DNA from: Clostridia bacterium
GTDB taxonomy: Bacteria > Bacillota > Clostridia > Christensenellales > Borkfalkiaceae
Direction of reading: 5' to 3'
Assembly: GCA_014805025.1 (NCBI GenBank)
Contig: JAAUYR010000081.1
Coordinates: 1 to 37,439, forward strand
DNA length: 37,439 bases
Shown here: in pieces, positions 3,963-24,147 of the stretch
Numbering within the stretch: position 1 is the first letter of the stretch
Layout of the letters: every line of letters starts with the position of its first letter
Position numbers and translations under genes: made by a program
The notes under the pieces: model-generated
Seen by the model: the letters and a program-made list of their open reading frames with translations, nothing else
What the model was told of the DNA's origin: nothing
The model's database searches: none

Positions 3963-5627
3963 TCACTCCGCCGAAAGTTCCGCGTGCCCGTCCGGGGTTA
4001 CGAGGATAGTTTTAAATTCACTGTAAATTACAAAGCCCGCGTTTGTCTTTGGCGGTTTTTTAACGAACTTCCGCCTTGTGTAATCTACGGGTATTTTATT
4101 GCCCGAGCGCCCGTCCGAGTAGTAGGCGCAAATCTCCGCCGCAGCCTTTAAAACCCCGTCGGGCACTTCCTTGCCGTCGCATAGAATAACGACGTGAGAG
4201 GAGTGGTAGCCCTGCGTGTGCAGCCACAAATCGCCCTGAGAAACGCTCTTTAAAAGTCTGTCGTTTTGCAGGTTGTTGCGCCCTGCCAGAATTTTAAATC
4301 CGCCGAATACGAACTCGCGGAAGGGCGAGGTTTTAACGGTTTTCTTTTTGCCGCTTTGAGTATCCTTTATAAGCCCAAGGCTTTTAAGCTCTTCCTCGGT
4401 TTCTTCGAGGTCTAAAAGGTGTTCGGCCGCACATATGTGCGAGTTAATGCTGTTTAAGTACTCTAATTTATCCTCGGTTTCGCGCTTTTGTTCGGTAACC
4501 GAAATTAAAGTTCTTTTGAGTTTTGCGTATCTCTTATAATACTTCTGCGCGTTATCGGCAGGCGACAGCGTTTTATCGAGCGCAATCTTTATTTTAGCAC
4601 AGTTTTCGTCGTAATAATTTACCGCTTCAAAACTGTCCATACCCCGTTCAACGGCATATATATTGGCGGTAATCAGTTCGCCTTTAAGTTTTACGCTCTC
4701 CATATCGCGGCAGTCCAAAAGCTTTTGGTTGATGGTTGCAAGCCGCTTTTCAAGCTTTTTAACCGAAGATAAAAGCGCGCCTTGAAGCTTTCTTTTTTTA
4801 TCGTTAAAGTTCTGTTTTGAACAGATATATCCGTAATAAGCCGTCTGAGCCTTTAAAAGACTTTCGTAATTTTTTTTGGTTTTGTCCGCCGAGCGCACCT
4901 TGAAATCGTTCGGTTCGCCGTTCAAATAAGTTACGCAAGGCCGGCATTGCCCCCCACATATATAGCGGTTTACGTCGAATGCGGTCGGATTTTCGCCGAA
5001 AGTTTCAACTATATCGAGCGCGGTGGCGTAGGAAACGCCCTTAACGTTTTCCGAAATAAACTTGGCGCTGTCGCCCGATATGCGCTTGAAAACCTCGCAA
5101 AGCCCGTTTAAATTTTCGGCGTCGCATTTGTCCTGCGGCTCGGGCAAAGAATACTTCGCCCCCGAAAAAAGTACGCGCTTGGTGTTCTCGCCGATAGCGG
5201 TGGATTTCAGCGCGCCTAAAATTATTCCGCCGCTCGTCAAAACCGCGTTTGAGTACTTGCCCATCAGCTCGATATAAAGCCGCATATTTACGTTCTCGAA
5301 TTCCGAAGTGCAGTAAAAATCCAAGCAGACGATTCTTTCGCCGTCCACCTGAAAGATATCGCAAATTTCCGCGTTCTGCAAGTGCTTTCTCAGCAGCATA
5401 CAAAACCCCGGCGCAACCTGGGGCGCGGCTTTCTCGTTTTCGGCGATATTAATTCTGCAACCGCGTGCGGAAAGGCAAACTTCGAGTTTAACCGAGCCGC
5501 TTCGGGTGTATATAATAAATATCAGCAGTTCTTTTTCCGGCTGTGTTATTTTGGAAATTTTACCGCCCACGAGCAGGTTTTTAAGCTCGGCAGTGAGATA
5601 TTTAATTGTAAAAGCGTCCTGCGGCAT
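3963..5627 (-). CDS. rqcH: RqcH / NFACT family ribosome quality-control protein (fibronectin-binding-like)
   Basis: Bacterial RqcH binds the peptidyl-tRNA-blocked 50S subunit after ribosome splitting, brings in tRNA-Ala and directs C-terminal alanine tailing, which marks the chain for ClpXP and other proteases. The 554 residues show the full NFACT layout. The N-terminal domain runs to about residue 220 (MPQDAFTIKYLTAEL, LYIELMGKYSNAVL), then helix-hairpin-helix and long coiled-coil arms at about 270-430. The C-terminal NFACT-R domain has SPFREFVFGGFKILAGRNNLQN and LWLHTQGYHSSHVVI. The Asp-Arg pair needed for tRNA binding in B. subtilis (Asp97-Arg98) reads Glu97-Arg98 here. The ATG at 5627 has a GAGG site and a sigma-A-like promoter. 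It heads a minus-strand operon with three small membrane-linked genes and lies divergent from tig-clpP-clpX, which suits its role. Confidence 0.92.
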   Translation of the reverse strand: MPQDAFTIKYLTAELKNLLVGGKISKITQPEKELLIFIIYTRSGSVKLEVCLSARGCRINIAENEKAAPQVAPGFCMLLRKHLQNAEICDIFQVDGERIVCLDFYCTSEFENVNMRLYIELMGKYSNAVLTSGGIILGALKSTAIGENTKRVLFSGAKYSLPEPQDKCDAENLNGLCEVFKRISGDSAKFISENVKGVSYATALDIVETFGENPTAFDVNRYICGGQCRPCVTYLNGEPNDFKVRSADKTKKNYESLLKAQTAYYGYICSKQNFNDKKRKLQGALLSSVKKLEKRLATINQKLLDCRDMESVKLKGELITANIYAVERGMDSFEAVNYYDENCAKIKIALDKTLSPADNAQKYYKRYAKLKRTLISVTEQKRETEDKLEYLNSINSHICAAEHLLDLEETEEELKSLGLIKDTQSGKKKTVKTSPFREFVFGGFKILAGRNNLQNDRLLKSVSQGDLWLHTQGYHSSHVVILCDGKEVPDGVLKAAAEICAYYSDGRSGNKIPVDYTRRKFVKKPPKTNAGFVIYSEFKTILVTPDGHAELSAE

Positions 5628-5653
5628 AAAAAACCTCGCGTATTTCAGAGAGT

Positions 5654-5682
5654 ATTATAGCCTAAAAATTTTCAAAAGTAAA
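5654..5682 (-). promoter_or_regulatory. Promoter of the rqcH operon
   Basis: On the minus strand TTTACT (5677-5682) is 17 bases from TATAAT (5654-5659). The leader is about 20 bases and carries the GAGG site. It sits back to back with the tig promoter at 5704-5732. Confidence 0.7.
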
Positions 5683-5703
5683 TTTATTTGGGCTTTAAAT
5701 CGC

Positions 5704-5732
5704 TTTTCAAAACCGTTAAGTTATGCTACAAT
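5704..5732 (+). promoter_or_regulatory. Promoter of the tig-clpP-clpX-lon block
   Basis: TTTTCA (5704-5709), a 17-base spacer and an extended -10, TGCTACAAT (5724-5732). It lies 56 bases before the tig ATG. I find no CtsR-type or CIRCE operator here, so heat-shock control by those repressors is not visible. Confidence 0.6.
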
Positions 5733-5787
5733 ATGCTTTGCATAAAAATAAAATATCGGGGTATTCCCGTAAAATCAGGAGAAAGTT

Positions 5788-7134
5788 ATGAACTACACAC
5801 AGGCAGTCGGAGAAAAGAGTACGGTTAAGCTCACCATAAGCTTTACCGAGGAAGAATGGCAGGAGGCAAACTCCAAAGCATACTTAAAGACGCGCGGCAA
5901 GTATACCGTGCCCGGTTTCAGAAAGGGCAAAGCGCCCCGTCCGGTTCTCGAAAACTATTACGGCAAAGGCGTTTTCTTTGAGGAAGCTTTCAACATTCTT
6001 TATTCCGAGCATTACTTTAAAATTCTCGAAAACGAAAAGGATAACTTTACGGCGGTTGGCGAGCCTTCGCTGTCCGTTGAGGATATGACGGAAGGCAAGG
6101 GCGTAACGCTCGGCGCGGTAGTGCCCGTAAAACCCGAAGTAACAATCGAAGCATACAAAGGTTTAAAAATCAAAAAGTATGAGTATAATGTTACCGACGC
6201 CGACGTCGACAAGGAAGTTAAAAAGCTTTTGGAGCGCGGCGCAAAGGATATCGACGTTACCGACCGCGCCTGTGCGGACGGCGATACGGTGAATATCGAC
6301 TTTTCGGGCAGTGTTGACGGCGAAAAGTTTGCCGGCGGCACGGCGGAAGGTTACGACCTTGTGCTCGGCAGCGGCAGCTTTATTCCCGGCTTCGAGGCTC
6401 AGGTCGAGGGTATGAAGATAGGCGAGGACAGGGAAATTACCGTTAAGTTCCCCGAAGATTACCAGGCTGACGAGCTTCGCGGCAAGGACGCAAAGTTTGC
6501 AATTAAGCTCAACAAAATCACGGGCAAGGAGCTTCCCGAGCTCACCGACGAGTACGTTAAAACTCACGCCGGCGTAGAAACGGTTGAAGAGTACAAAAAG
6601 AATACTCGCGAAAGACTTATCAAAAACGCGGAAAACCGTTCGCGCGACGAAACGGAAAACAGCATAATTGAGGCTATCCGCAAAAATGCAAAGGCGGAAA
6701 TCCCCGACGCCATGGTCGAGAGCGAAATCGACAGAATGGTTCAGGAATTTTCGTACAGACTTATGTATCAGGGCGTAAAACTCGAAGATTACGTAAAATA
6801 TATGGGTCAGACCATGGAGCAGTTCCGTTTGCAGTTTACCGAGCAGGCTAAAACGCGCGTTATGTCGCAGCTTGTAATAGATAAAATCGTTAAAACGGAA
6901 AACTTCACCGCGGACGAGAAAGAGCTTGACGCTAAAATCGAAGAGCAGGCTAAATCGGTCGGCAAGACTTTGGAAGAGTACAAAAAGAATATCGACCCCA
7001 GACAGGTCGAATATATCAATAACGACATAATAATAACCAAGATGTTCGATTTCCTCAAAGCGAACAACGAGCTTTACGTTGAAGGCGCAAAGCCGGCTGC
7101 CGCAAAAAAATCGACCAAAACGACTAAAAAATAA
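5788..7134 (+). CDS. tig: Trigger factor, ribosome-associated chaperone
   Basis: Trigger factor binds near the ribosomal exit tunnel, shields nascent chains and has peptidyl-prolyl isomerase activity. The 448 residues carry the three domains in order. The N-terminal ribosome-binding domain includes the PGFRKGKAPRPVLENYYG loop at about residues 42-60, the family's ribosome-docking signature. The FKBP-like domain at about 155-245 has GDTVNIDFSGSVDGEKF and LGSGSFIPGFE. The helical C-terminal chaperone domain follows. The tail ends in a Lys/Thr-rich run. The start is set by CAGGAG about eight bases upstream. It is followed after 18 bases by clpP and then clpX and lon, the classic clostridial proteostasis order. 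Transcription starts at the extended -10 promoter upstream. Confidence 0.97.
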   Translation: MNYTQAVGEKSTVKLTISFTEEEWQEANSKAYLKTRGKYTVPGFRKGKAPRPVLENYYGKGVFFEEAFNILYSEHYFKILENEKDNFTAVGEPSLSVEDMTEGKGVTLGAVVPVKPEVTIEAYKGLKIKKYEYNVTDADVDKEVKKLLERGAKDIDVTDRACADGDTVNIDFSGSVDGEKFAGGTAEGYDLVLGSGSFIPGFEAQVEGMKIGEDREITVKFPEDYQADELRGKDAKFAIKLNKITGKELPELTDEYVKTHAGVETVEEYKKNTRERLIKNAENRSRDETENSIIEAIRKNAKAEIPDAMVESEIDRMVQEFSYRLMYQGVKLEDYVKYMGQTMEQFRLQFTEQAKTRVMSQLVIDKIVKTENFTADEKELDAKIEEQAKSVGKTLEEYKKNIDPRQVEYINNDIIITKMFDFLKANNELYVEGAKPAAAKKSTKTTKK

Positions 7135-7152
7135 TAAACGGAGAATAACTTT

Positions 7153-7743
7153 ATGGAACGCAACGCACTTGTGCCTTATATAGTCGAACAGACTTCACGC
7201 GGCGAACGCTCGTACGATATTTACAGCAGACTTTTAGAGGACAGAATTATATTTTTAAGCGGCGAGATTGACGACGCTGTTGCAAACACGGTAGTGGCTC
7301 AGCTTATTTATCTTGAAGCAAAAGACCCTTCAAAGGATATTTCGCTGTACATCAACAGCCCGGGCGGCTCGGTTTCGGCAGGGCTTGCGATTTACGATAC
7401 TATGAACTACGTAAAGTGCGACGTTTCCACTATCTGTATAGGTATGGCGGCATCGATGGGCGCGTTCCTTCTGTCGAGCGGACAGAAGGGCAAGCGTTAC
7501 GCGCTTCCAAACAGCGAGATAATGATTCACCAGCCCCTGGGCGGCGCGCAGGGTCAGGCAAGCGATATAAAAATCGCTGCGGAGCATATTTTAAAAACCA
7601 AGCAAAAGCTCAATACCATACTTGCGCAGAACTCCGGCAAGCCTCTTTCCCAGATAGAGCGCGACACCGACAGGGACAATTACCTTTCGGCACAGGAAGC
7701 GCAGGAGTACGGTCTTATCGATAAAGTTTTCTACAAAAGATAA
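7153..7743 (+). CDS. clpP: ATP-dependent Clp protease proteolytic subunit
   Basis: ClpP forms the double-heptamer serine protease chamber that ClpX and other Clp ATPases feed with unfolded proteins. At 196 residues it has the usual length. The catalytic triad is visible: Ser101 in GMAASMGAF, His126 in [10 protein letters not shown] and Asp171 in [12 protein letters not shown]. The conserved INSPGGSV loop is at about 68-75. The start ATG follows a GGAG site and lies 18 bases after tig, with clpX 39 bases downstream, so the three form one transcription unit. A short N-terminal propeptide as in other ClpPs may be removed. Nothing unusual is seen. Confidence 0.97.
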
Positions 7744-17210: not shown

Positions 17211-17292
17211 ATTTAAAAAAATTAAAAGTTCTAAAACGCGTTTAATGCAAATAAGTTATTATACACATAGTTTTAGTTTTGCGGAGGCGGTT

Positions 17293-18768
17293 ATGCTTGA
17301 ATACAACGTTTACGAGGACATTGCCGGAAGAAGCGGCGGAGATATTTATATCGGCGTGGTAGGCCCTGTGCGTACGGGCAAGTCCACGCTTATCAAAAAG
17401 TTTATGACGGAGCTTGTCATTCCCAACGCGGAAGCCGGCAACTTAAAAAACGTAATGGTAGACGAACTGCCGCAGTCGGCTTCTGGCAAGTCGGTCATGA
17501 CGACCGAGCCGAAGTTCGTGCCTGCAAAGGCGGCGGCGGTAAAAATTGAAAACGCGACCGCAAACGTGCGGTTTGCCGACTGCGTAGGTTTTATAACCGA
17601 AGGCGCGTTCGGCTTTGAAGAGGACGGCAAACCTCGCCTTGTCAACACGCCTTGGAGCGAAAAACCCCTGCCGTTTACCGAAGCGGCCGAGCTCGGCACG
17701 GATAAAGTTATATCCGAGCACTCGACGATAGGCATATGCGTAACGACGGACGGCAGCATTTCCGATATCGCCCGGGCAGGCTATGTGAACGCAGAGGAGC
17801 GCACGGTTGCGCGGCTTAAAGCTTCGGGTAAGCCCTTCGTTATAATTTTGAACTGCGTCGAGCCGGAAAAGGCGGCGGCTAAAAAATTAAGGGAAGACTT
17901 AGAGGCCAAGTACGGCGTAACGACAATCGCGGCAAACTGCGAAAAGCTCACGGCGGAAGGACTTTTGAACGTCTTAAAGGCAGTTCTTTTCGAGTTCCCC
18001 GTAACGAGTTTCAACGTGGATATACCCGATTGGATGCGCTTTCTGCCTCCCGACAGCACGGCGGTTTGCGAGCTTTTGGAAAGAATAAAAGCCACCTCGC
18101 AGAGCGTATGTAAAATGAAAGACTGCGACGCGTTCGATAATATGCTTTCCGACTGCAAGTTCTGGAAGGGCGAGGTTTCGACGTCTTTGGACCTTGCAAC
18201 GGGCAAAGCCACCGTAAAGGCATACGTTCAGGACGGAATATTCTTCGATATGCTTTCGGAGATTGCAGGCGACAGTATATCCGACGAATACACGCTTATG
18301 CGTTACGTTCGCGGTTCGTCCGACGCAAAGCGCAATTACGATAAAATCAAGGACGCGTTCGAGTGCGCAAAAATCAACGGCTACGGCATAGTCCAGCCCG
18401 ACGACAACGATATGAGTCTGGAAGAGCCCAAGGTTATCCGTCAGGGCGGCAGCGTGGGCATAAAATTAAAGGCGACCGCGCCCAGCTATCATATAGTTAA
18501 AATAGACGTAACCGGCGAGGTCAGCCCCATAATGGGAACGGCCGCTCAGAGCGAGGGTATTGTTCAGGGAATGATGACCGGCTTCGAGAATAACCCCGAT
18601 GATATGTGGGATACAAACGTATTCGGCAAGTCTTTAAGGGGTATGGTAAAGGAAGGTCTTGCGGGCAAGGTTACCTGTATGCACGACGACACCAAGGCCA
18701 AGATGCGCCGCGCCATAACCAGAATAGTAAACGAGGGCAGGGGCGGAGTTATCTGCATAATACTGTAA
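17293..18768 (+). CDS. spoIVA: Stage IV sporulation protein A, spore-coat base-layer ATPase
   Basis: SpoIVA polymerises on the forespore surface using ATP and forms the platform for coat assembly. The 491 residues match the usual length of about 492. The N-terminus MLEYNVYEDIAGRSGGDIYIG leads to Walker A GPVRTGKST at residues 24-32. The TRAFAC-like domain runs to about 240, and the conserved C-terminus ends GGVICIIL. The ATG at 17293 is chosen over an in-frame upstream ATG because GCGGAGG lies just before it and the family start aligns there. It is monocistronic between two terminators. A mother-cell sigma-E promoter is expected; TATACACA at 17260 is only a weak match, so control is not shown. 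Its presence is the main evidence that the host makes endospores. Confidence 0.97.
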   Translation: MLEYNVYEDIAGRSGGDIYIGVVGPVRTGKSTLIKKFMTELVIPNAEAGNLKNVMVDELPQSASGKSVMTTEPKFVPAKAAAVKIENATANVRFADCVGFITEGAFGFEEDGKPRLVNTPWSEKPLPFTEAAELGTDKVISEHSTIGICVTTDGSISDIARAGYVNAEERTVARLKASGKPFVIILNCVEPEKAAAKKLREDLEAKYGVTTIAANCEKLTAEGLLNVLKAVLFEFPVTSFNVDIPDWMRFLPPDSTAVCELLERIKATSQSVCKMKDCDAFDNMLSDCKFWKGEVSTSLDLATGKATVKAYVQDGIFFDMLSEIAGDSISDEYTLMRYVRGSSDAKRNYDKIKDAFECAKINGYGIVQPDDNDMSLEEPKVIRQGGSVGIKLKATAPSYHIVKIDVTGEVSPIMGTAAQSEGIVQGMMTGFENNPDDMWDTNVFGKSLRGMVKEGLAGKVTCMHDDTKAKMRRAITRIVNEGRGGVICIIL

Positions 18769-18788: not shown

Positions 18789-18892
18789 TATAATACAGTA
18801 GCAACGGGCGTTACCGGCGCTCAGTCTACGACGGTAACGATTTGCCGAAATTTACGGCGGCGGAAGCAAATGCTTCCGCCGCCGCCAATTTT
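18789..18892 (+). ncRNA. Candidate small RNA downstream of spoIVA
   Basis: TATAAT at 18789-18794, with a weak GTAACA -35 match 18 bases upstream (18765-18770), would start a transcript near 18801. The next 90 bases hold a perfect 8-bp stem (18809-18816 with 18832-18839, 15-base loop) and then the terminator hairpin at 18856-18883 with its T run. Promoter, one internal stem and a terminator in about 90 bases is the layout of a small RNA. No known family is recognised, and the hairpins could simply be the spoIVA 3' untranslated region. Confidence 0.3.
18856..18892 (+). terminator. Intrinsic terminator after spoIVA
   Basis: A 13-bp perfect stem (18856-18868 with 18871-18883) with a 2-base AA loop, followed by a T run (18889-18894) that overlaps the stop codon of the convergent small gene. 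Confidence 0.88.
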
Positions 18893-19057
18893 TTATTCGC
18901 CCTGTTTGTCTTTTTCTTCGTCCGCATAGCCCACAAAGGCGTCGGGAACGGAAAGGTCTCCGTTGGCGTTAAACAGCGCCGCGTCGTTTTTTAGCCCTGC
19001 AATATACTGCAAATACTGCTCGTCGGTTATCTTTTTAATCTTATTTTTTTTACCCAT
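18893..19057 (-). CDS. Small 54-residue protein, unknown function
   Basis: The ATG at 19057 is preceded by GGAGG six bases upstream, a strong ribosome binding site, and this supports a real gene despite its size. The 54-residue product starts with a Lys-rich segment (GKKNKIKKITDEQY), then an amphipathic helix (LQYIAGLKNDAALF) and an acidic polar end (EEKDKQGE). No Cys, membrane segment or known motif is seen. A longer in-frame version from 19102 has no ribosome site and is less likely. It is convergent with spoIVA. Small basic-then-acidic proteins of this kind occur in spore-forming clostridia without known roles; a link to sporulation is only suggested by position. Confidence 0.65.
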   Translation of the reverse strand: MGKKNKIKKITDEQYLQYIAGLKNDAALFNANGDLSVPDAFVGYADEEKDKQGE

Positions 19058-19223
19058 AAAAAGCCTCCGCTCGTTTTTAATTATTATGAGCGCGGCTCGC
19101 ATTTTTTATACAGATTACCGTTTTCAGTCGTAAAAATTACCAAAAAATGGACATTGCCCCCCGAATATATCGTATTTAACCCAAAAAATTTTTAAAAAAA
19201 CTTAAAAAATCTTTGTAATTGTA

Positions 19224-19318: not shown

Positions 19319-22270
19319 ATGGCTTACGACCAGTACGATGATGAAAGAGTGGTAACCACCGTCCCCAAGAAGGCGGACATAATTTTAAGAATCGAGCAGG
19401 AAATCGCTGCAAAGCAGGACGAGCTTTCAACCCGTTCTCAGGCGTCTTCCGCACGCATTGAAGAGGCGCTCGAACAAATTGCAAAGACCCGTGAGGAAAT
19501 CTTGCATATTGCTCGTCAGAACGGTGAAATTTACGATTCCATCAGGAATGACTACACATCGTTCAAGCGTGAGTTCAAGTATATCGCCATACAGAACGAA
19601 AGCGTTTTCAAAATTTTCAGCGATAAGCTTGGACAGCTCGAAGAAGAAATCGCAAGGATAAAGACGGACGTAGAACCCGTAGTTACCGAAACGGGCGAGC
19701 TCGATTACGACGCGCTTGCCGACAAGGTTGCCGCGCGTATCCCCGCACAGGAAGTTGCCGTTGCATCGGCAGTACCCGTCGAGGCTGCGGAAATCGACTA
19801 CGACGTTCTGGTGGACAAGCTTGTTGCGCGTATGCCCGTACAGGAAACGTACGTTGCCGCGCCTCAGAGCGTTCCCGTAACGGCCGACCTTCAAATCGAC
19901 TACGACGCACTTGCGGACAAAGTTGCTTCACGCATACCCGCACAGGAAGCGGCAGTTACTTCTGCAATTCCCGTTGAGGCCGTGGAAATCGACTACGACG
20001 CGCTTGCGGACAAGGTTGCATCTCGCATACCTTCTTCCAACACGGTTGTTGCCGCAGCTCCCGTAACGGCTGACCTTGCACTCGATTACGACGAGCTTGC
20101 AGATAAAGTTATTTCCCGTATCCCCGTACAGGAAGCCGTTTCGGCAGATTACATTGCATCAAAAGTTGCCGAGCAGCTGGTTATCCCGACTGTCGGCACG
20201 GCTCAGATAGATTACGATACTTTGGCTGAAAAGCTTTCGGACGTTCAGCCCACTGCAACCGTTGCGGGCGAAATCGACTACGAAGCACTTGCAGACAAAG
20301 TTGCAGAGCGTATCCCCACACAGCAGGCCGTTGTTGCCGGCGAACCGGCTTCGGTTACGGTCAGCGCGGAAATCGACTACGACTTACTTGCGGATAAGGT
20401 TGCCGAGCGTCTGCCCGAGCAGCACTATACCGAAACAGTTACGGGCGTTGACGTTGACTACGATTTACTTGCAGAAAAGGTTGCGGCGCTTATCCCGGCA
20501 GTTCAGTCCGGCGCGGCGGTTATCGCAGCACCTGCAAACGTGGAAATCGACGAAGAAGACCTTGCAGACAGAATTGCGCTTAAAGTCGGCGCTATCAAGG
20601 CCGAAGACTTCGACATTATCGTTGACGACGACGGTTGCAATTCCATAAGCAAGGAGCTTGCTGAAAAGCTCGACTACGACTATATAGCAGCGGCAGTTGC
20701 CGAAAAGCTTCGTCCGGCTATCGTTGACGAAGAGGACGACGCGGAAATCGACTACGACGAGATGGCCGCACGCATCAGCGAAAAGATTACCGTTGCAGGC
20801 GTAAACGAAGACGCTATTGCAGATAAAGCTGCTGCGGCGCTTTCCAACTACCTGCCTGAAATCGACGCGGACGAAATTGCCGACAAGGTTGCAAGCCAGG
20901 TAATAAGCGCGCTTCCCGAAATCAACGTTGATACGGACTATATATCCAGTGCCGTTTCCGAAAAACTTATTGAGAACCAGGCTGACCACGATTACGATAT
21001 CGTGCTTGACGAAGACAACCTCGAAAGAGTTGCCGAGCGCATCAGCCAGAATATAAAGGTTGCAGGCGTTGACGAAGACGCTATCGCTCAGAAAGCGGCG
21101 GCAGTTCTTTCCGAATACGTTTACAATACCGACGAAATTGCCGACAAGGTTGTAGAGCGTATGCCCGTTCAGACGGCGGAACCCGTCGAAGTTCAAACGG
21201 AAATCGACTACGACGCGCTTGCCGACAAGGTAGCCGAAAGGGTGGTGGAATCTTTTCCATCGGAAAACGGTAACGAGGTTAATTATAACGAAGTAATTAC
21301 CGAAGTTACCGAAAGAGTATCCCAGAATTCCGACGAGCGTTTCGACGATATTGCAAAAGAAATTTCCGAAATAAAGGAAATGCTTACAAGCGGTGACTAC
21401 GTAGTACGCGAGGTTGTGCGCGAAGAAGCCGCTCCCGTAGAAGCTTACGAAGAACCCTACGTTGCAGAAGAATCACTTGTTACCGTCAGCGAAGTAGTTG
21501 CGGAGCAGGAAGCAGCGGAAGAAGAAGCCGTTGAAGAAGAGACGGTTGAAGAAATAGTAGAAGAAGCTCAGCCCGTTGAAGAGGTTGTTGAAGAGCCTCA
21601 GCCTGTTGAAGAGGTTGTAGAAGAACCCGAAACCGAGGAAGAGGTTACCGAGGAAGCCGAAGAAGAAGGCGAAACCGAGGAAGAAACTCTCGAAGAGTTC
21701 ACTTACGACGATTTAACTTCCGGCGTTGACGTTGAGAATATGTCCTACGAAGAGCTTGAAGCGTTAGAGCTGAAAGGCGGCGTAGACTTTGCAAACATGA
21801 TGCGTTACAACCGCAGCTTCATTGCAAGAATTATTCAAAGCTCGGACGACCAGAAAGGCTATTACGGTTCTGTAAGAAACGCGCTTTTAAGTTATAAAAA
21901 GGTAAACTCCAACATTGCCTGGGGTGCAGAGCGCTTCCACAAGGGCAGAGAAACTATTGCACGCTTCAAAATCCGCGGCAAGACGCTTATTCTGTATCTT
22001 GCGCTTGACCCTGCCGAACACGAGTACAGCGTTTACCACCATAAGGACGTATCCGACAACAAGTCCGTTGCCGGCACTCCGATGATGATAAAGGTCAAGA
22101 GCCCTCGCGGCGTTAAAAAAGCTATAAGACTTATCGACGAAATGCTTTTGGCTCGCGGCGGTGAAAAGAGAAACGTGCCCGAGCGTGATTACGCGGCGAT
22201 GTATCCTTACGAAACCATTAAGGAGCTTATCGAAGACGGGCTTGTAAAAGACGTACGAAAAGACAAATAA
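19319..22270 (+). CDS. Large acidic repeat protein with coiled coil and conserved C-terminal domain, function unknown
   Basis: 983 residues, very acidic, with no signal peptide or membrane segment. Four zones are visible. Residues 19-120 are predicted coiled coil (RIEQEIAAKQDELSTRSQ onward). Residues 127-667 hold about 21 imperfect copies of a 15-residue unit with consensus EIDYDALADKVAERI, spaced 15-45 residues apart by Pro/Ala/Val-rich linkers (PVQEAV, VPVTAD). Residues about 690-810 are Glu/Val/Pro-rich, including a tandem QPVEEVVEEP. Residues about 820-983 form a compact basic domain (MMRYNRSFIARIIQSSDDQ, LLSYKKVNSNIAWGAERF, KTLILYLALDP, MMIKVKSPRGVKKAIRLIDE). Similar C-terminal domains seem to occur in hypothetical proteins of other gut clostridia, from memory only. 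The gene stands alone between terminators. A cytosolic scaffold or filament is one possible role; this is unproven. Confidence 0.85.
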   Translation: MAYDQYDDERVVTTVPKKADIILRIEQEIAAKQDELSTRSQASSARIEEALEQIAKTREEILHIARQNGEIYDSIRNDYTSFKREFKYIAIQNESVFKIFSDKLGQLEEEIARIKTDVEPVVTETGELDYDALADKVAARIPAQEVAVASAVPVEAAEIDYDVLVDKLVARMPVQETYVAAPQSVPVTADLQIDYDALADKVASRIPAQEAAVTSAIPVEAVEIDYDALADKVASRIPSSNTVVAAAPVTADLALDYDELADKVISRIPVQEAVSADYIASKVAEQLVIPTVGTAQIDYDTLAEKLSDVQPTATVAGEIDYEALADKVAERIPTQQAVVAGEPASVTVSAEIDYDLLADKVAERLPEQHYTETVTGVDVDYDLLAEKVAALIPAVQSGAAVIAAPANVEIDEEDLADRIALKVGAIKAEDFDIIVDDDGCNSISKELAEKLDYDYIAAAVAEKLRPAIVDEEDDAEIDYDEMAARISEKITVAGVNEDAIADKAAAALSNYLPEIDADEIADKVASQVISALPEINVDTDYISSAVSEKLIENQADHDYDIVLDEDNLERVAERISQNIKVAGVDEDAIAQKAAAVLSEYVYNTDEIADKVVERMPVQTAEPVEVQTEIDYDALADKVAERVVESFPSENGNEVNYNEVITEVTERVSQNSDERFDDIAKEISEIKEMLTSGDYVVREVVREEAAPVEAYEEPYVAEESLVTVSEVVAEQEAAEEEAVEEETVEEIVEEAQPVEEVVEEPQPVEEVVEEPETEEEVTEEAEEEGETEEETLEEFTYDDLTSGVDVENMSYEELEALELKGGVDFANMMRYNRSFIARIIQSSDDQKGYYGSVRNALLSYKKVNSNIAWGAERFHKGRETIARFKIRGKTLILYLALDPAEHEYSVYHHKDVSDNKSVAGTPMMIKVKSPRGVKKAIRLIDEMLLARGGEKRNVPERDYAAMYPYETIKELIEDGLVKDVRKDK
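19697..21319 (+). repeat. Array of about 21 degenerate coding repeats (consensus protein EIDYDALADKVAERI)
   Basis: Each unit encodes (E/D/Q)-(I/L/V)-D-Y-D followed by an amphipathic helix A-D-K-V-A-x-R-I. The closest copies (units near 19697, 19893, 19986, 20269, 20369 and 21199) keep the DNA form GAAATCGACTACGACGC. Later units (20800-21130) have drifted to VNEDAIADKAAAAL or DADEIADKVASQV. Spacers vary in length, so this is not a CRISPR or a simple tandem repeat. Confidence 0.9.
21569..21628 (+). repeat. Tandem 30-bp coding repeat (QPVEEVVEEP twice)
   Basis: Two adjacent 30-base units (21569-21598 and 21599-21628) differ at only a few bases and lie in the Glu-rich low-complexity zone of the large repeat protein. 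This is a likely site of copy-number change between strains. Confidence 0.85.
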
Positions 22271-22288
22271 TAAAACGATTTATGCGTG

Positions 22289-22325
22289 GGGGGTTGATTT
22301 AATTTATCAACCCCCTGAATTTTTG
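22289..22325 (+). terminator. Intrinsic terminator after the repeat-protein gene
   Basis: A 10-bp stem (22289-22298 with 22306-22315) around a 7-base loop, followed by a short T run (about 22320-22324). It lies right before the RNase J ribosome binding site; since I see no promoter between, some read-through into rnj is likely. Confidence 0.75.
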
Positions 22326-22347
22326 AACAACTATTTGGAGAATGATT

Positions 22348-24147
22348 TTGGAAAACCAACAAGAAAACCGCAACTCACAAAAGGGCGCAAAAAACCGCAA
22401 ACCGCGAATGCCGCGCAATAACGAGTTCAAGCAGAATAAAAAATCAAAATCAAGCGGTAACGAAAAGCAGAACAAGCGCCCCCGTAACGGGCAACGCGGC
22501 GGCAAGCCCGTAAAAATAATCTTTCTCGGCGGCGTTGGCGAAATCGGCAAGAATATGACCGCCTTGGAGTGCGGCGACGATATCATAATAATCGATGCCG
22601 GCGCAATATTCCCCACCGAGGAAACCCCCGGCTTCGACCTTGTCGTGCCCGATATTTCCTATCTTTTGGACAACGCAAAAAAGGTTCGCGGTCTTATTTT
22701 AACGCACGGTCACGAGGACCATATCGGCGGCGTTCCCTATCTTTTAAAGGAGCTTAAAGTTCCCGTTATCGGCACAAAGCTCACTTTGGCGCTCGTCGAT
22801 AACAAGCTGCGCGAGCACCGCATAAATGACGTAAAGGAAATAACCGTAACCCCCAACCAGACCGTTCAGCTCGGCTGTTTTAAAGTGCGTACCGTCAACG
22901 TAAACCATTCAATTGCCGGCTCGCTTGCGTTTGCAATTCAGACCCCTCAGGGCATAATCTTTCACAGCGGCGATTACAAAATAGATTTAACCCCCGTTGC
23001 CGGCGAACCTATCGATTTAAAAACCATATCCGACGTCGGCTCTTCGGGCGTGCTCCTGTATATGGGCGAAAGCACGAATATCGAGCGCGCGGGCTTCACA
23101 ATGAGCGAAACCGTAGTCGGCACAACGCTGGACAGGCTTTTCGGCGAGAACATCAAGCGCAGACTTATCATTGCAACTTTTGCCTCCAATGTGCACAGGC
23201 TTCAACAGATTATCGACCTTGCCGTTAAATACAGGCGCAAGGTTGCGCTTTCGGGCAGAAGTATGCTGAACGTCATCGAGGCCGCCGAAAAGATAGGTGA
23301 AATTAAAATTCCCGACGACGTTCTCGTGGATATAACGCATATCAAGAATATGCGCGACAGCGAAATCGTGGTAATTTCCACGGGCAGCCAGGGCGAGCCT
23401 ATGAGCGCTTTAACGCGTATGGCAAACGGCGATAGCTCGTACGTTACCGTCGGCGCAAACGATACGGTCATAATTTCGGCTTCGCCCATTCCCGGCAACG
23501 AAAAACCCGTTTACCGCGTTATCAATAACCTGTACAGAAAGGGCGCGGACGTCGTTTACGAAAGTCTGCAAAACATTCACGTATCCGGCCACGCTTGCAG
23601 GGAAGAGCACAAAATAATGCACAACCTGTTAAAGCCCAAGTTTTTTATTCCCGTTCACGGCGAGTACAGGCATCTTAAAAAGCACGCTCAGCTTGCCGAG
23701 GAACTCGGTATGCCCGAAAACCGCATAATGATACCCGATATCGGCAACTGTATAGAGATTACCCAAAAGGGTATGCGCAGGGTCGAAAGCGTGCCCTCCG
23801 GCTCGCGCCTTATCGACGGCGAGGGAATAGAGGACGAAAAGGCCAGCACCGTCATAGAGGACAGAATTCAGCTTTCGGAAGAAGGTCTGTTTATAGTATC
23901 GGTTGCCGTCAGCGGCGGCGAGGTTGTCGGCGAGCCTGCAATCAATTCGCGCGGCTTCGTTTTCGATTTCCACCACGATTACGACAGAGAAATCCGCGCC
24001 GTAATCAAGCGCGCAATAGACGGCTACGACCTTTCGCGCGGCAACGTTGACGGGTTAAAGCGTGCAATAAAGCAGAGTTTAAGAAATTATCTTTTAAAGA
24101 AGACAAAGCAGTCGCCCATGGTTGTGCCTGTGGTCGTCGAGTTATAA
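22348..24147 (+). CDS. rnj: Ribonuclease J, metallo-beta-lactamase ribonuclease
   Basis: RNase J is a 5'-3' exo- and endoribonuclease central to mRNA turnover and rRNA maturation in Firmicutes. The 599-residue protein starts at TTG 22348: GGAG at 22337-22340 is seven bases from this TTG but only one base from an in-frame ATG at 22342. The first 50 residues are a basic, Asn/Lys-rich tail (KGAKNRKPRMPRNN), probably disordered and RNA-binding. The catalytic metallo-beta-lactamase core follows with HGHEDHIGG (His120, His122, Asp124, His125), then the beta-CASP domain (STGSQGEPMSAL, IHVSGHACREEH, PVHGEYRHL) and a C-terminal domain. It heads a tightly packed operon with tRNA-modification genes, aroA and dinB. 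Confidence 0.95.
   Translation: MENQQENRNSQKGAKNRKPRMPRNNEFKQNKKSKSSGNEKQNKRPRNGQRGGKPVKIIFLGGVGEIGKNMTALECGDDIIIIDAGAIFPTEETPGFDLVVPDISYLLDNAKKVRGLILTHGHEDHIGGVPYLLKELKVPVIGTKLTLALVDNKLREHRINDVKEITVTPNQTVQLGCFKVRTVNVNHSIAGSLAFAIQTPQGIIFHSGDYKIDLTPVAGEPIDLKTISDVGSSGVLLYMGESTNIERAGFTMSETVVGTTLDRLFGENIKRRLIIATFASNVHRLQQIIDLAVKYRRKVALSGRSMLNVIEAAEKIGEIKIPDDVLVDITHIKNMRDSEIVVISTGSQGEPMSALTRMANGDSSYVTVGANDTVIISASPIPGNEKPVYRVINNLYRKGADVVYESLQNIHVSGHACREEHKIMHNLLKPKFFIPVHGEYRHLKKHAQLAEELGMPENRIMIPDIGNCIEITQKGMRRVESVPSGSRLIDGEGIEDEKASTVIEDRIQLSEEGLFIVSVAVSGGEVVGEPAINSRGFVFDFHHDYDREIRAVIKRAIDGYDLSRGNVDGLKRAIKQSLRNYLLKKTKQSPMVVPVVVEL

Follow-up and report, generated by a model that had tools for sequence, protein, structure and literature searches.

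What is the role of the long acidic repeat protein encoded between spoIVA and the RNase J gene rnjA in a clostridial genome of the family Borkfalkiaceae (order Christensenellales, assembly GCA_014805025.1)? The window analysed here comprises positions 1 to 37,439 of contig JAAUYR010000081.1 (37,439 nucleotides), and the frame in question, referred to below as gene X, is a real, protein-coding and lineage-conserved gene. Its product is best understood as a cytoplasmic multivalent scaffold (probability about 0.55), probably a lineage-specific one. The composition and conservation of the gene, the kinship of its C-terminal domain and the company that this domain keeps in other proteins are considered in turn, followed by the competing roles.

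Organization of gene X and its surroundings

The frame is open throughout and encodes 983 aa, of which 226 are Asp or Glu and 93 Lys or Arg. Composition and a unit profile agree with the layout described in the first-pass annotation, namely acidic units with variable linkers, a Glu/Val/Pro zone and a basic C-terminal domain (Table 1). The head is probably a coiled coil. Within the 115 residues of the acidic linker there are 47 Glu and a single Lys/Arg, and the C-terminal domain (hereafter the C-domain) holds 32 Lys/Arg versus 22 Asp/Glu. No transmembrane-grade segment was detected in the protein by hydropathy, the best 19-residue Kyte-Doolittle mean being 1.68.

Table 1. Features of the gene X locus, with coordinates of the window
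Feature	Position	Strand	Evidence
spoIVA, upstream neighbour, ATPase domain intact	17245..18768	+	TIGR02836 585.6 bits, cut-off 459.9
Terminator-like hairpin after spoIVA	18855..18884	+	13-pair stem, T tail
Gene X, acidic repeat protein, 983 aa	19319..22270	+	open frame, orthologues, composition
Head, residues 1-117, proline-poor	19319..19669	+	1 proline in 117 residues
First half of the array (residues 127-392), ten EIDYDALADKVAERI units joined by P/A/V linkers	19697..20533	+	unit profile
Conserved central block (residues 406-590), whose seven units have diverged but are mostly conserved	20534..21088	+	orthologue and unit comparison
Residues 591-700, last two units and helix-rich stretch	21089..21418	+	unit profile, orthologue identity
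Acidic Glu/Val/Pro linker, residues 701-815	21419..21763	+	composition
Basic C-domain, residues 816-983	21764..22267	+	orthologues, hhalign to DUF5655
Terminator-like hairpin after gene X	22287..22317	+	12-pair stem, weak T tail
RNase J (rnjA), downstream neighbour, basic N-terminal extension	22342..24147	+	TIGR00649 561 bits, cut-off 400

The gene had been described as isolated between terminators, and terminator-like hairpins do lie on both sides of it; 12 such sites were found in the scanned region versus 7.0 +/- 2.9 in shuffles, and the two that flank gene X have the longest stems. A small ORF of 69 aa lies on the opposite strand between spoIVA and gene X (18893-19102). Past rnjA, the window continues with a gene for a tRNA-modification-type O-methyltransferase and then one for a U32/TrhP-like protein, for which the TrhP model scored below its cut-off.

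The repeat array

A profile trained on gene X's own units recovered 19 units, each of 15 residues, from residue 127 to residue 642, with the exact consensus EIDYDALADKVAERI, versus a mean of 0.05 and a maximum of one in 500 residue shuffles of region 118-715. The units are short, of the form DYDxLAxKVA, and vary in number. Two further variant units, near residues 429 and 558, were recognized by eye only, and the original count of about 21 repeats in a 983-residue protein was thus a fair one. The spacing of the units is irregular, at 18-47 residues, which argues against a fixed-period solenoid, and a solenoid repeat was rejected on this ground. The amphipathy of the units is weak, with a mean helical moment of 0.312 versus 0.261 in shuffles, 80 of 2000 of which reached as high a value.

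A gradient from near-identical to drifted units had been reported along the array. The units of the first half are indeed more alike, with a mean pairwise identity of 0.56 versus 0.37 in the second half; however, the second half has not simply decayed. When compared with L070, a distant orthologue, six of its units (409, 450, 476, 494, 514 and 583) have a best match of 0.67-0.93, units 536, 601 and 628 are less well kept (0.53-0.60), and the first-half units reach 0.33-0.53 with the exception of unit 273 (0.80), all of these values being best matches anywhere in the orthologue irrespective of position. A reading that fits is that the array may combine core units that are old and fixed with a first half that can be renewed.

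The gradient had also been ascribed to ongoing expansion, which is unseen in the DNA of the window but seen in relatives. Tandem Repeats Finder (score 40) reported no array in the EIDYD region (19690-21240 of the window); within gene X its only array falls in the acidic zone, apart from short 15-nt pairs. This array is a 30-bp x 2.8 tandem repeat in the acidic linker DNA (21545-21627). The best pair of 45-nt unit DNAs in the window is 89% identical. Recent tandem expansion of the window copy was rejected, as the unit region lacks a tandem DNA array. The orthologue of the closest relative (L044) contains an 87 bp x 2.6 tandem repeat at 93%, and that of a sister-genus member (L127) a 54 bp x 11.5 repeat at 83%. 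The window-trained profile gave 0-24 units per orthologue and undercounts distant orthologues; the zero belongs to a contig-truncated copy.

Conservation and distribution of gene X

Gene X was identified in all 36 other genomes of the genus in a first sample and in five further ones in a second. As had been claimed, the C-domain is conserved, being present in 36/36 orthologues at 73.6-98.8% identity (median 80%). The central block is also found in all 36, at a median identity of 53%; region 118-405 and residues 591-700 each show a median of 33%, and the head gave a blastp match in only 25 of 36, with a median of 32%. Four of these 36 orthologues are cut at a contig edge, and one (G005) has a single in-frame TAA within the C-domain match. 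Orthologue length varies from 337 aa to 1715 aa; the shortest, from G194 of the second sample, has about two units by eye and a C-domain 63% identical to that of the window. Orthologues L055 and L142 carry additional long coiled-coil-like inserts.

Outside the genus, all six genomes of the sister genus g27 possess an X protein that bears the C-domain, its gene adjoining rnjA, with similar units and other linkers (as in L127). The same gene order, X-rnjA-methyltransferase-U32, was found on a contig from water deer caecum (L037). By contrast, the C-domain profile had no match in the 22 upstream regions of rnjA examined in genus g26 and other families of the order, three of which span less than 1.2 kb; as a control, the same profile matched 8/8 X loci.

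Kinship of the C-domain

The absence of a named family, as first reported, holds at curated cut-offs, as the gene X protein has no significant match in Pfam, NCBIfam or PDB sequences; however, profile-profile comparison revealed a new and remote relationship of the C-domain to DUF5655. Alignment by hhalign of 40 C-domains with 12 DUF5655 sequences gave a probability of 96% (P 4e-9, 101 columns, score 55.6), versus scores of at most 17.6 for 100 column shuffles and 12.9 for the reversed profile. The related part spans approximately residues 838-944 of gene X. In reciprocal searches, with Z set to 1000 and a threshold of E 0.01, the DUF5655 HMM matched 73 of 117 C-domains but 0/117 reversed ones, the domain of the window being matched at E 0.003, and the C-domain HMM matched 6 of 12 DUF5655 sequences at E 0.01. 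Pfam's own model (PF18899, cut-off 24 bits) matched 0/40 C-domains even at E 1, so that the C-domain is not a DUF5655 member by Pfam's rule. On the strength of these profiles it is a remote member, a divergent branch of the DUF5655 superfamily.

The C-domain alignment (A3) consists of the domain of the window and 39 sequences selected among the 48 representatives obtained by clustering 117 near-full-length domains. A first DUF5655 alignment of eight sequences (A4) yielded an hhalign probability of 27%, which rose to 88% when three rows of another subfamily were dropped. The final one (A7), with 12 sequences from a larger search, omits those three rows, two hits with in-frame stops, all hits below the cut-off and one short hit (60/109 positions) despite its being over the cut-off.

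The first-pass annotation had suggested profile comparison and AlphaFold modelling of the C-terminal region. The former led to DUF5655, and the latter produced two models of low confidence only (pLDDT 47 and 60); one shows two helices, five strands and a helix, an arrangement compatible by eye with the DUF5655 superfamily; fold searches with the C-domain model returned nothing reliable. No match to a characterized family of known function was obtained, DUF5655 itself having no known function, and no mention of DUF5655 or of PDC-S18, a phage-defence model considered below, was found in a literature search.

DUF1801 may be a cousin of the C-domain by profile, weaker than DUF5655. The in-register match is weak and by itself not significant (probability 19%, P 0.0012), with 0/60 shuffles as high, and the known-related pair DUF5655-DUF1801 itself reaches only 21% with these small profiles; the C-domain HMM matched 0/17 DUF1801 sequences at E 0.01. 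DUF1801/YdhG-like proteins have a frataxin-like fold (PDB 2OC6, 2I8D, 2KL4 and 9T2W), and YdhG superposes on frataxin (PMC10855754); this likeness suggests no iron or Fe-S role for the C-domain. Kinship with DUF3788, proposed from a shared GKTLC stretch, was rejected (profile probability 1.5%, with 1/60 shuffles scoring as high).

A search for the C-domain in other genomes, also proposed at the outset, found it in 82 of the 200 order genomes, from 33 of 102 genera, and in one of 298 others sampled across the phylum (G489). The latter hit is a DUF5655 protein above the Pfam cut-off, found independently with Pfam's model. L187, the DUF5655 protein that was read, is nuclease-like and of 305 aa, unlike the acidic repeat protein. 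Among the genomes sampled, the C-domain branch is nearly confined to the order.

Other proteins carrying the C-domain

The genome of the window encodes a paralogue of 420 aa (G000:C16, L002:1420-2682) in which an apparent membrane span at the N-terminus is followed by an acidic linker, the C-domain and, last, an L15-like domain (PF00828, 46.2 bits, cut-off 21.5); its gene lies near rnhB-, yraN- and rplS-like genes. An L15-like domain also ends the C-domain proteins L107:8144-13999 (-), at 40.1 bits, and L124:470-3181 (+), where its 20.8 bits fall just under the same cut-off of 21.5. In L109, L111, L115, L116 and L118 an apparent signal peptide, a large ectodomain and a membrane span, as judged by eye, precede the C-domain, which comes last. 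Two or three tandem copies occur in soluble or membrane proteins (L112, L113, L120, L122 and L123). The C-domain also follows other domains in L132, where an 834-aa protein (5012-7513, -) with no Pfam match combines a zinc-ribbon-like CxxC pair, recognized by eye, with two C-domains. In genus g42, which belongs to another family, three-copy C-domain proteins adjoin spoIVA in four of six loci, the contig ending nearby in the other two; in L226 and L227, aroB/aroD-type and metallophosphoesterase-like genes, named by eye, are also close. This spread of architectures suggests that the C-domain may serve as a module that binds targets of a shared kind in the cytoplasm.

A cytoplasmic scaffold as the preferred reading

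In the preferred reading, the head of X would self-associate, the units would be short helices that provide docking sites or form an adjustable spacer, and the acidic linker would keep the C-domain mobile and shielded. The C-domain in turn would hold a common cytoplasmic target, either protein or nucleic acid. Such a common target would explain why the domain forms the cytoplasmic tails of single-pass membrane proteins and occurs as tandem copies in soluble ones. The graded conservation, highest in the C-domain, lower in the central block and lowest in the array and head, is the pattern that an elastic array carrying a fixed binding domain would be expected to show. The variable unit number, the irregular linkers, the absence of a membrane segment and the recurrence of the C-domain were counted in favour of the scaffold, and the weak unit amphipathy and the low-confidence C-domain models against it. 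As an alternative, the acidic array may have a structural or storage-like role.

The C-terminal scaffold of RNase E is long, disordered and charged, bears short helices and is tied to a ribonuclease, and PopZ-type scaffolds are acidic and multivalent, with an acidic linker and short helices. X would resemble the PopZ type in its acidic linker and short helices. As an analogue, it may also share with the RNase E scaffold and with the Helicobacter pylori RNase J-RhpA degradosome a long disordered charged scaffold, short helices and a ribonuclease tie; it differs in being a separate gene.

Alternative roles

It is conceivable, though unlikely, that X is a partner of RNase J, that is, a lineage-specific degradosome or condensate organizer whose acidic array or linker holds the basic N-terminal tail of the enzyme. 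The adjacency of the two genes is constant: in 34 of 36 genus loci rnjA lies downstream of X in the same orientation, no more than about 0.7 kb away, the contig ending 47 and 164 bases after X in the other two, and it likewise follows X in 5/5 further genus genomes, 6/6 sister-genus genomes and L037. The next two genes, for the O-methyltransferase and the U32/TrhP-like protein, also concern RNA. In addition, all X lineages read have a basic N-terminal extension on RNase J, of approximately 55-62 residues in the window (22342-22520). Taken as upper limits, since the first possible start codon was used, the extensions have a median of 92.5 aa and a net charge of +18.5 in the genus (n=34), 112 aa and +17.5 in the sister genus (n=6) and 107 aa and +23 in L037, versus 16 aa and +4 in 19 lineages without X beside rnjA. 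There is a precedent in H. pylori (PMC10700544), where RNase J forms clusters with RhpA and starts with a disordered extension of 132 residues whose function is unclear. However, a basic extension (net charge at least +12) also occurs in five of the 19 lineages that do not have X beside rnjA, the X lineages are close kin, so that the association may be a single evolutionary event, and a terminator-like hairpin of its own lies between X and rnjA. Because of these five tails, the close kinship and the use of first possible start codons, the tie to RNase J is a lead only.

A second, doubtful possibility is that X acts as a cytoskeletal or filament protein of variable length, with a polar or morphogenetic role and with its units packing along the filament. 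The low-proline head, the repeated units and the long coiled-coil-like inserts of L055 and L142 would suit such a protein; however, the spacing of 18-47 residues is irregular, the linkers contain proline, the G194 orthologue manages with about two units, and no filament protein family was matched in Pfam or NCBIfam.

A role in sporulation together with SpoIVA is brought to mind by the upstream spoIVA gene of the window and by the three-copy C-domain proteins next to spoIVA in the four g42 loci, but it seems quite improbable. In several genus loci (e.g. L039, L040, L051, L052, L066, L069 and L071) the upstream flank that was retrieved shows no spoIVA. Gene X is retained by 12 genomes in which the SpoIVA match is missing the ATPase part and by three that gave no SpoIVA match, among fragmented assemblies; G024, one of these three, also gave no match to SpoVAC or SpoVAEB. 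A sporulation role is less likely because X persists where SpoIVA is partial or not found. As to the partial proteins themselves, 34 genus genomes gave a SpoIVA match, and in 12 of them the alignment begins no earlier than position 149-222 of the 492-position model, leaving the ATPase part unmatched. Two of the SpoIVA proteins, from G029 (L231:9335-10426, -) and G035 (L232:702-1850, +), have about 110 N-terminal residues without a P-loop, followed by the middle and C domains. A SpoIVA without its polymerizing ATPase would be surprising.

A far-reaching extension of the RNase J partnership, to which a low probability is likewise assigned, would make X an evolvable degradosome organizer, in which the array holds the RNase J tail, the C-domain anchors the assembly and array length tunes the number of clients, within an order-wide docking system built from a DUF5655-derived domain on membrane proteins and L15-like fusions. 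Finally, a derivation from, or a function in, phage defence, where DUF5655 occurs in a candidate defence nuclease, is very improbable: the sole C-domain profile match outside the order is a DUF5655 protein that is assigned to PADLOC PDC-S18 (E 7.3e-150) and whose N-terminus resembles NucS, below the cut-off, but X differs from mobile defence genes in being universal in its genus and syntenic there, PADLOC has no model that its C-domain matches (best E 0.028), and no viral contig relative was found.

Implications

For the order, DUF5655 provides a nameable origin for an unannotated domain that is widespread in a single order of uncultured clostridia, and, as this C-domain sits on many unrelated architectures, its ligand, once solved, would annotate many proteins. 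For the lineage, gene X provides a simple test of whether RNase J has a dedicated partner there. Its orthologues, of 337-1715 aa and with about two to over 20 units, form a natural series for the role of a length-variable acidic array.
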